Assembly: GCA_029210545.1 (NCBI GenBank)
Contig: JARGFV010000007.1
Location: 1 to 45,467 of the forward strand
Length of the DNA: 45,467 nucleotides
Origin: a bacterium
GTDB taxonomy: Bacteria > BMS3Abin14
Reading direction: 5' to 3'
Shown here: in pieces, positions 7,109 through 21,713 of the stretch
Numbering within the stretch: the first letter of the stretch is position 1
Layout: each line of letters starts with the position of its first letter
Program-made: the position numbers and the translations under genes
The notes under the pieces: model-generated
What the model saw: the letters and a program-made list of their open reading frames with translations, nothing else
Database searches by the model: none
What the model was told of the DNA's origin: nothing

Positions 7109-7302
7109 TCGCAAAAAGTCCAATCCGGGACTTTTCGCTCCACGGAAAGGGAAAAGCGTGGTTTTCCCTTCCCTCACGGATCGCTGACATATTTACCGGT
7201 CATCGATCCGGGCGCCCTTCCCAGGCGCGGCTAGTCATTTGTGAGTCATTGATTTTGTCGCCCCACGCGGGGCGCGTTGATGGACTTTTTGCGAGTCCAT
7301 CA
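7109..7302. repeat. Modular interspersed element, copy A (full)
   Basis: The left end TCGCAAAAAGTCCA (7109-7122) is mirrored by TGGACTTTTTGCGA (7281-7294), a perfect 14-bp terminal inverted repeat. Internal modules are an AAAAGTCC/GGACTTTT hairpin, a GGAAAGGGAAAA/TTTTCCCTTCC hairpin, two GATCCGGGCGCCC-like blocks and a terminal 9-bp hairpin (TGATGGACT/AGTCCATCA). There is no room for a transposase, so it is a non-autonomous element. It separates rimM from trmD. Other copies are at 8668, 31872 and 45393. Confidence 0.75.
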
Positions 7303-19552: not shown

Positions 19553-19859
19553 AAGGGATCAGTCACGTATATTTTTTCAAGTTCTTGTTTTTAAAAGGCT
19601 TTTATAAAACAATTCCAACGGTCCGGCAGCAGCTTAATAGGGAAACGTATATAAAAAATATGGGAATACAAAGACAAATCACTGGGCCAGGATAGTGGTA
19701 AGCGCATAACTATATGTAATTGTAAGCTTTTATTTATATTGAGGGGTGTATGGTGGAGATATACAGGCACGCGCCCCTGGAGATCAGGCTACAGGGGCCC
19801 GTACAGTGAGTGCATTAAGTGCAGTTTAGTGCAGCAATGCGCTTTTGCACTCATGCACC
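19553..19859. other. AT-rich divergent control region between the cluster and comM
   Basis: No gene is visible. The stretch 19560-19740 is far more AT-rich than its surroundings and has the near-repeats ACGTATATTTTTT (19572) and ACGTATATAAAAAATATG (19645). It is a likely place for activator binding upstream of the sigma-54 site and for the comM promoter. Further on are a GCCCCTG/CAGGGGC hairpin (19773-19798) and three AGTGCA repeats (19808-19834) closed by TGCACTC (19846-19852). I could not identify a clear paired enhancer site. Confidence 0.5.
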
Positions 19860-19969
19860 GGACTCTTGAGACCAATTTGACACATTTTTTGGCTTCAGGT
19901 TTGCACGGATCATCCCAATATCAGCTAACTTCAGCCAAAAAGGAGGAGACAAATTGGTCTCAAGAGTCC
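19860..19969. repeat. Perfect 20-bp inverted repeat enclosing the comM SD and start codon
   Basis: GGACTCTTGAGACCAATTTG (19860-19879) is the exact reverse complement of 19950-19969. A nested 9-bp pair, TTTTTGGCT (19886-19894) with AGCCAAAAA (19933-19941), lies inside, and TGCAC blocks flank both arms. In an RNA hairpin the comM SD (AGGAGGAG) lies at and just beyond the base of the inner stem, largely in the internal loop, while the TTG start (19954) and the first five codons are in the outer stem. Confidence 0.85.
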
Positions 19970-21477
19970 TGTCGTGCACCATCAGCGGTCTCGAGGCGGT
20001 TCCCGTCCACGTGGAACTGGACCTCACCAACGGTCTCCCGGGGCTGACCATCGTGGGGATGGGGGACACAGCGGTCCGGGAGAGCAGGGAACGGGTTATC
20101 GCGGCCCTGAGAAACTCCGGGTACGAGCTGCCCCCCTCACGGGTCACGGTGAACCTGGCCCCCGCTGACCTGAAGAAGGAGGGAAGCCGCTTCGACCTTC
20201 CTATCGCCCTGGGGATACTCTCCGCCTTGAGGGCGTTTCCGTCCGACGCCCTGGACGGCTACCTGGTCATGGGAGAGCTCTCCCTGACCGGAGAGATCGT
20301 GGGCCGGGAGGCGGCTTTTCCCGCGGCCCTCCTGGCACGAAGGGCGGGGTTGACCGGGATGATCCTGCCGGACGAGATGGCAGCGGAAGCCTCCCTCGCC
20401 GACGGGTGCATGTCGCTGCCTGTCCGCAGCCTGATGGAGGTCACCGAGTTTCTCAGGGGACAAAGGGAACTGAACGCCGTAGCCCCTGTCTCTGTCCGGA
20501 TACCGGACAAAAGCCCCGACCTTTCAGAGGTGGCAGGGCAGGAGATGGCGGTGAGAGCCCTTACGATCGCCGCTTCGGGAGGACATAATATCCTTTTTTC
20601 CGGACCACCGGGCTCAGGCAAGACCATGTTGTGTAAAAGGCTTCCCGGCATCCTGCCATCGTTATCCAACGACCAGGCCATGGAGGTCACCGCCATCCAC
20701 AGCGTAGCGGGACTCCTGTCCTACGGGGACGGGATCATCAGAACGCCCCCCTTTCGCGCTCCGCACCACACTATCTCCCACGCAGGCCTCGCAGGCGGCG
20801 GCTCCAACCCGAGGCCGGGAGAGGTCACCCTCGCCCACCGCGGAGTGTTGTTTTTAGACGAGATGTCGGAGTTCTCCCGCTCGGCGCTGGAAACATTGAG
20901 GCAGCCGCTGGAGGACAAAAGGATCGTGGTATCGAGGGCTGCCAGGTCGGTGAGTTATCCGGCAGACTTTCTCCTCGCCGGGACCGCCAACCCCTGCCCT
21001 TGCGGCTACCTTGGCCACGACACGAGACCTTGCACCTGTCCCCCTTCGGCGGTGGCCCGCTACCGGCGCCGCATCTCCGGGCCCCTCATGGACAGGATCG
21101 ACCTCGTCGTCCCGGTTCGGGCCCTCGAACCCGGGATCATCGCCGAGGGAGGACACGGGACCCGGTCTCAGTCGGTAAGGGAAAAGGTCCTGGCCTCCCG
21201 CGCCGTGCAGGCCGAGAGGGCGGCGGGAGGGATGCCGGTCACCAACGCGGCCCTGTCCCCCGAACAGCTGCGAGACGTGTGCCCCCTGGAGCCGGCCCAC
21301 AGGAAGATCATGGACGGTGCGGTACGCAACCTGGGGCTGACGGCCCGGGGCTACCACAGGATCATGCGGGTGGCCCGCACCATCGCGGACATGGAGGGGG
21401 TGGAACACGTCACACCTGAGCACCTGGGAGAAGCGCTGCAATACAGGCCTGTTATGGAGGGACCGATAAGGTTCTAG
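19954..21477 (+). CDS. comM: ComM/YifB family Mg-chelatase-like AAA+ ATPase
   Basis: ComM is a hexameric helicase that extends branch migration when incoming DNA is integrated in natural transformation; relatives are widespread also in species not known to be competent. The 507-residue protein has the N-terminal ChlI-like domain (DLTNGLPGLTIVGMGDTAV, VTVNLAPADLKKEGSRFDLPIALGIL), Walker A SGPPGSGKTMLCKRLPGILP, Walker B GVLFLDEM and the cysteine-rich NPCPCGYLGHDTRPCTCP before the sensor region RISGPLMDRIDL. The start is TTG at 19954 with SD AGGAGGAG, inside a 20-bp inverted repeat that could block initiation. That control is inference. Confidence 0.95.
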   Translation: MVSRVLSCTISGLEAVPVHVELDLTNGLPGLTIVGMGDTAVRESRERVIAALRNSGYELPPSRVTVNLAPADLKKEGSRFDLPIALGILSALRAFPSDALDGYLVMGELSLTGEIVGREAAFPAALLARRAGLTGMILPDEMAAEASLADGCMSLPVRSLMEVTEFLRGQRELNAVAPVSVRIPDKSPDLSEVAGQEMAVRALTIAASGGHNILFSGPPGSGKTMLCKRLPGILPSLSNDQAMEVTAIHSVAGLLSYGDGIIRTPPFRAPHHTISHAGLAGGGSNPRPGEVTLAHRGVLFLDEMSEFSRSALETLRQPLEDKRIVVSRAARSVSYPADFLLAGTANPCPCGYLGHDTRPCTCPPSAVARYRRRISGPLMDRIDLVVPVRALEPGIIAEGGHGTRSQSVREKVLASRAVQAERAAGGMPVTNAALSPEQLRDVCPLEPAHRKIMDGAVRNLGLTARGYHRIMRVARTIADMEGVEHVTPEHLGEALQYRPVMEGPIRF

Positions 21478-21502: not shown

Positions 21503-21544
21503 ATCTCAAATCTCAAATCTCATATCTCAGATCTCACATCTCAG
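21503..21544. repeat. 7-nt degenerate tandem array (ATCTCAN x6), with inverted counterpart
   Basis: The six units are ATCTCAA, ATCTCAA, ATCTCAT, ATCTCAG, ATCTCAC and ATCTCAG. The reverse-complement version (TTTTGAG, ATCTGAG, ATATGAG) lies at 21636-21656. The array fills the first half of the 296-nt comM/binding-protein spacer, in which no gene is seen. Confidence 0.75.
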
Positions 21545-21713
21545 AAAACATCAACCGATGGATATTCCCGACATCTGTTTTCGGCATCAGGCCCGGGGCT
21601 GAAAAACCGTTCTTGACAATCGAGATTGAAACCACTTTTGAGATCTGAGATATGAGCTTGAGTTCCCCAAAGGCTCATCATATTTCCGAACGAGGCTAAC
21701 AAGTTGGAAAGCA

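Follow-up and report, generated by a model that had tools for sequence, protein, structure and literature searches.

The start codon of comM lies in the right arm of an exact 20-bp inverted repeat, and a putative sigma-54 promoter sits between the two arms, such that the comM message should lack the left arm. The explanation that we favour, tentatively and at slightly less than even chances, is a promoter-in-the-loop quasi-palindrome, made and kept by template switching, that silences RNA reading through from upstream. The repeat was identified in a stretch of bacterial DNA of 45 467 nucleotides (the window), in which the relevant features are as follows.

19807–19853, plus strand: candidate activator (enhancer-binding protein) site, TGAGTGCA ... 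TGCACTCA with further GTGCA copies, by inspection only
19860–19879, plus strand: left arm of the 20-bp repeat, GGACTCTTGAGACCAATTTG, directly 5' of the sigma-54 promoter and outside the predicted comM message
19886–19894, plus strand: left strand of the nested 9-bp pair, TTTTTGGCT, overlapping the -24 element
19889–19905, plus strand: predicted sigma-54 -24/-12 promoter, TTGGCTTCAGGTTTGCA, with GG at 19891–19892 and GC at 19903–19904, conserved in the family
19916, plus strand: predicted transcription start, 12 nt past the -12 C, from promoter geometry
19933–19941, plus strand: right strand of the nested 9-bp pair, AGCCAAAAA, just 5' of the Shine–Dalgarno sequence
19942–19946, plus strand: comM Shine–Dalgarno sequence GGAGG, in the internal loop between the stems
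19950–19969, plus strand: right arm, CAAATTGGTCTCAAGAGTCC, containing the TTG start codon (19954–19956) and the first codons (MVSRV)
19954–21477, plus strand: comM, encoding a YifB family Mg-chelatase-like AAA+ ATPase of 507 aa (TIGR00368, 552 bits; PF13541, PF01078, PF13335)

The geometry is as the initial annotation had described it: two 20-bp arms 70 nt apart enclose the 9-bp pair, with the TTG codon in the right arm and the Shine–Dalgarno sequence between the stems. Pairing of the arms is Watson–Crick throughout, with no G–U pairs and with sharp boundaries. A perfect match of this kind had been judged unlikely by chance and simple arithmetic agrees, with about 1e-5 expected within 200 nt in 45 kb; the length of the repeat rules out a chance origin. 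The assignment of comM is supported by TIGR00368, for which the cut-off of 362 bits is passed; against the narrower model NF007365 the product scores 416 bits, below the cut-off of 530. Just 3' of the gene, at 21519–21656 of the window, there is an 18-bp inverted repeat (CTCATATCTCAGATCTCA, loop of 102) built of simple ATCTCA-type words that are common in the intergenic DNA of this genome.

The repeat at the comM start is single-copy in the 2.7 Mb genome, and a mobile or dispersed palindromic element of the MITE or REP type is ruled out there by the single occurrence. No other exact inverted repeat with a loop of 40 nt or more matches it in length within the first 845 kb scanned. Over 2.03 Mb its score is equalled or exceeded by those of eight other single-copy repeats, three of which have loops of more than 70 nt. 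The comM repeat is real, yet others of its kind exist in the genome. That the genome is a draft in 241 contigs might suggest an artefact of assembly or amplification; we regard this as the least probable of the explanations considered, given the single copy and the analogous hairpins in relatives that were assembled independently.

The promoter exactly matches TGGC-N7-TTGCW, with GG and GC at the -24/-12 spacing. Since 0.34 matches to the pattern are expected in the window, one match is unsurprising, and the weight for this assignment comes from conservation in relatives. Each of the seven free-standing comM genes in the family has a sigma-54 box 54 to 103 nt upstream of its start; in the four members with a yraN–comM arrangement the box precedes yraN, 457 to 505 nt upstream of comM. 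All 11 family loci thus carry a box before comM or yraN–comM; outside the family, just one comM leader in about 92 had it. An rpoN gene, with the sigma-54 DNA-binding domain, was present in every one of the nine family genomes searched. The candidate activator site would lie at about -109 to -63 relative to the predicted comM start.

With transcription predicted to begin near 19916, between the arms, the comM message would lack the left arm and the stem would form only in RNA initiated further upstream. Folded as one RNA, the whole region gives -62 kcal/mol (z of -5.5 against dinucleotide shuffles). The calculations, which the initial annotation had proposed as a check, bear out a strong stem that buries the start codon when the 5' end of the RNA precedes the left arm: in silico, the codon is 0% unpaired in RNA beginning at or before 19870 and 87–92% unpaired in RNA beginning at 19905–19920. 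Shuffling the left arm gives z-values of -6.9 for this comM, -5.5 and -4.0 for two comM leaders from another genus and -2.8 to -5.4 for five comF leaders.

The same annotation had suggested the stem as a translational control of comM, and it is on this point that we differ. A translational switch in the main message, such as an RNA thermometer or a ligand-binding element, would draw on the strength of the fold and the burial of the start codon in RNA that begins before the left arm. It is nevertheless improbable, as the conserved promoter is predicted to start transcription inside the loop, that is after 19880, an outcome that had itself been named as counting against control by the stem. Furthermore, a search for known riboswitches and RNA thermometers returned no Rfam family at gathering score, and most relatives lack a counterpart of the 20-bp arm.

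Other sigma-54 boxes in this genome lie before comEC, comF, a type IV pilin gene, a Flp-type pilin gene and response-regulator genes. Those that recur across the family are at the following loci.

comF, L177–L184 and L323: family-wide sigma-54 box
comEC, L154–L161: family-wide sigma-54 box
pilA, L187–L190: family-wide sigma-54 box

An initial search at comEC placed the box at or near the start of the open reading frame in all eight family members covered, and three outsiders had none; of three further family members examined afterwards, one has a box and the other two lack a clear one. For comF, nine of the 11 family genomes with upstream sequence have the box, three of these nine with one mismatch; the other two, G005 and G010, are those in which the preceding gene directly adjoins or overlaps comF. 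About 10 nt separate the end of the comF box from the ATG, so close that the comF message is predicted to be nearly leaderless. No box was seen for dprA in a scan measured from the upstream RNase R-like open reading frame. A hairpin as a general feature of sigma-54 genes was ruled out, none being present at the other sigma-54 genes of the genome. Elsewhere, at L218 3830–3917, a 17-bp inverted repeat adjoins on the 5' side the sigma-54-like box (CTGGTATGCCTTTTGCT) of a pilin-like gene.

Relatives were compared gene by gene, none of them belonging to the genus of the source genome. Absence of the left arm from close relatives had been named as evidence against a functional stem, and the outcome is divided: the left-arm sequence is absent from every relative compared, none being of the same genus, but another genus carries a different arm in the same place. 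In this genus (g4) the comM leaders of G011 and G003 contain a 14-bp repeat, the left arm of which abuts the -24 box and the right arm of which is the Shine–Dalgarno sequence; G008, also of g4, has a weaker version. A comparison of orthologous comM leaders for compensatory change had likewise been proposed earlier. By eye, compensation is seen at two of the four pairs in which G008 and G011 differ. The comM leaders of G002, G006 and G001 have the promoter and no significant hairpin. None was found at comEC, pilA or yraN.

At comF, hairpins are present in five genomes from four genera (G000, G008, G003, G007 and G002), with the left arm just 5' of the sigma-54 box and the right arm within codons 6–13. 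In an alignment of four of the five genomes the share of paired cells is 94.6%, slid controls reaching no more than 48%, and four pairs are doubly changed, one of them occurring as GC, AU and CG. The open reading frame upstream of comF is co-directional with it, and read-through RNA would therefore be expected at that locus; by eye, this gene resembles gpmI (secY-like in G008). A third case is dapF, a non-competence gene, with a 22-bp repeat in the source genome, of which G011 and G003 have a version that co-varies. The hairpin is a recurring type, present at comF in four genera and at comM and dapF in two each, in matching positions and with different co-varying arms.

These observations bear on the idea that a regulator binds at each arm, on either side of the promoter, both arms containing the imperfect dyad GGaCTCttGAGaCC. 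The dyad symmetry inside each arm and the position of the promoter between them would suit such sites. However, the 20-bp match extends past the dyad, one arm must encode protein, and the arms of relatives differ and keep only their mutual complementarity, which is unlike the site of one protein. We judge this idea to be slightly less probable still than a switch in the main message.

The right arm encodes the N-terminus usual for ComM in the family (MVSRVLS), and the left arm is accordingly the copy. A local inverted duplication of the first codons, which the initial annotation had offered as an alternative, is supported by this N-terminus, by the sharp boundaries and by the many similar repeats at gene ends. 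Hairpins and compensatory changes of several bases are known products of template switching (PMC8794818, PMC7202029), and the comM repeat has the marks expected of it, namely a perfect reverse-complement copy, sharp edges and a single copy. We infer that template switching is the origin of the arms and maintains them. Since template switching also produces compensatory changes, such changes cannot separate selection on the RNA from a scar.

Single-copy repeats with scores of at least 14 and loops of 20–160 nt number 60 in 2.03 Mb. Those that straddle coding and non-coding DNA divide between 5' and 3' gene ends as nine and nine at scores of at least 15 and as 12 and ten at scores of at least 14, counts for which the gene calls are rough, being greedy open reading frames. 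A genome-wide class of repeats specific to gene starts was dropped as proof of function, the 5' and 3' counts being equal. This equality weighs most heavily against a function specific to gene starts, and it is what a local inverted-copy process would yield if the copy survives only in non-coding DNA. Where the loop exceeds 35 nt, the genome has more 5' than 3' cases, although few repeats are involved. The density of long-loop repeats is not unusual, at 28–32 per Mb across the source genome, family and outgroup sets. No straddlers were found in 0.52 Mb of outgroup loci, where five or six would be expected at the rate of this genome; this is suggestive only.

Several individual repeats were noted in this survey. 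Single-copy repeats of 15–25 bp with one arm in the leader and the other at the start or first codons occur at dapF (L330/L254) and at znuA-like (L288 3826–3950), lipase-like (L203 745–881), phosphoesterase (L239 207–277) and rsmG (L295 8691–8803) genes. Repeats of 14 bp, the right arm of which ends exactly at the Shine–Dalgarno sequence, occur at acpP-like (L279 6887–6993), glyA (L315 2844–2960) and zwf-like (L233 3845–3914) genes. A dispersed MITE-like element of about 140–190 bp with inverted ends TCGCAAAAAGTCCA lies at 7109–7294 of the window; further copies include L208 1580–1720, L222 8328–8468 and L214 10955–11115, and by BLAST one copy matches about 200 other places in 2.03 Mb.

We consider it nearly as likely as a silencer that the repeat is a neutral scar, in which a template switch copied the first codons of comM inverted into the leader, later switches keep the arms alike, and expression is unaffected. 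The perfection of the arms over 20 bp, with sharp edges and no G–U pairs, the even split of straddlers between gene ends, the unrelated nature of the genes affected (znuA-like, dapF, rsmG, lipase-like and others) and the documented products of template switching (PMC8794818, PMC7202029) all fit such a scar. It accounts less well for the recurrence of a repeat in the same position with respect to the sigma-54 box, at comF in four genera and at comM in two, and for the excess, in small numbers, of 5' cases among the longer loops.

In the promoter-in-the-loop explanation the left arm would likewise be an inverted copy of the first comM codons, made and kept perfect by replication template switching. 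The sigma-54 message, predicted to start between the arms, would be translated normally. RNA entering from upstream would carry both arms, and the 20-bp and 9-bp hairpin that forms in silico would hide the start codon, so that synthesis of the comM product would depend on firing of the sigma-54 promoter. The promoter-in-the-loop anatomy recurs at comF, a further competence gene of the family that has a sigma-54 box. Silencing of read-through RNA as the effect of the hairpin is a suggestion from the folding model, supported by the box between the arms and its conservation before comM or yraN–comM in the family, the presence of rpoN, the difference in start-codon occlusion, the exceptional left-arm z-values, the covariation at comF and the co-directional open reading frame upstream of comF. 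It is weakened by the similar repeats at unrelated genes such as dapF, equally at 3' ends, by the comM leaders with a promoter and no significant hairpin (G002, G006 and G001), and by the lack of hairpins at comEC, pilA and yraN. In addition, the gene 5' of comM is divergent, so there is no obvious source of read-through RNA at this locus.

A broader proposal, which we regard as possible though doubtful, is that sigma-54 directly drives comM/yraN, comEC, comF and pilA and that promoter-in-loop hairpins insulate comM and comF, such that only RNA made in response to the competence signal is translated. If true, a competence regulon run by sigma-54 would cover DNA-handling genes, beyond the pilus alone, in an uncultured lineage, and the placing of a promoter in a hairpin loop would constitute a simple insulator. 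In the literature searched we found no paper that places sigma-54 directly on comEC, comF and comM. The comF and dapF hairpins are natural cases in which selection for RNA pairing could be told apart from template switching as a source of concerted evolution.

The IS10 transposase and T4 late genes such as e are known examples of fold-back inhibition, which acts on read-through transcripts. What comM has in common with them is a promoter placed between the arms and a start codon that is occluded in read-through RNA and free in promoter-proximal RNA, at comM in silico. In contrast to those systems, the comM promoter is of the predicted sigma-54 type and the genes concerned are chromosomal transformation genes. 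With the quasi-palindromes formed by template switching (PMC8794818, PMC7202029) the comM repeat shares perfect reverse-complement arms, sharp edges and arms that change together, although its loop of 70 nt is far longer than at classical quasi-palindrome hot spots and encloses a promoter. In Ralstonia solanacearum sigma-54 is needed for transformation and a predicted box precedes pilA; RpoN was linked to competence through pilA, in what was presented as the first such report (PMC4371752). The family described here differs in having boxes directly before comM/yraN, comEC and comF as well.
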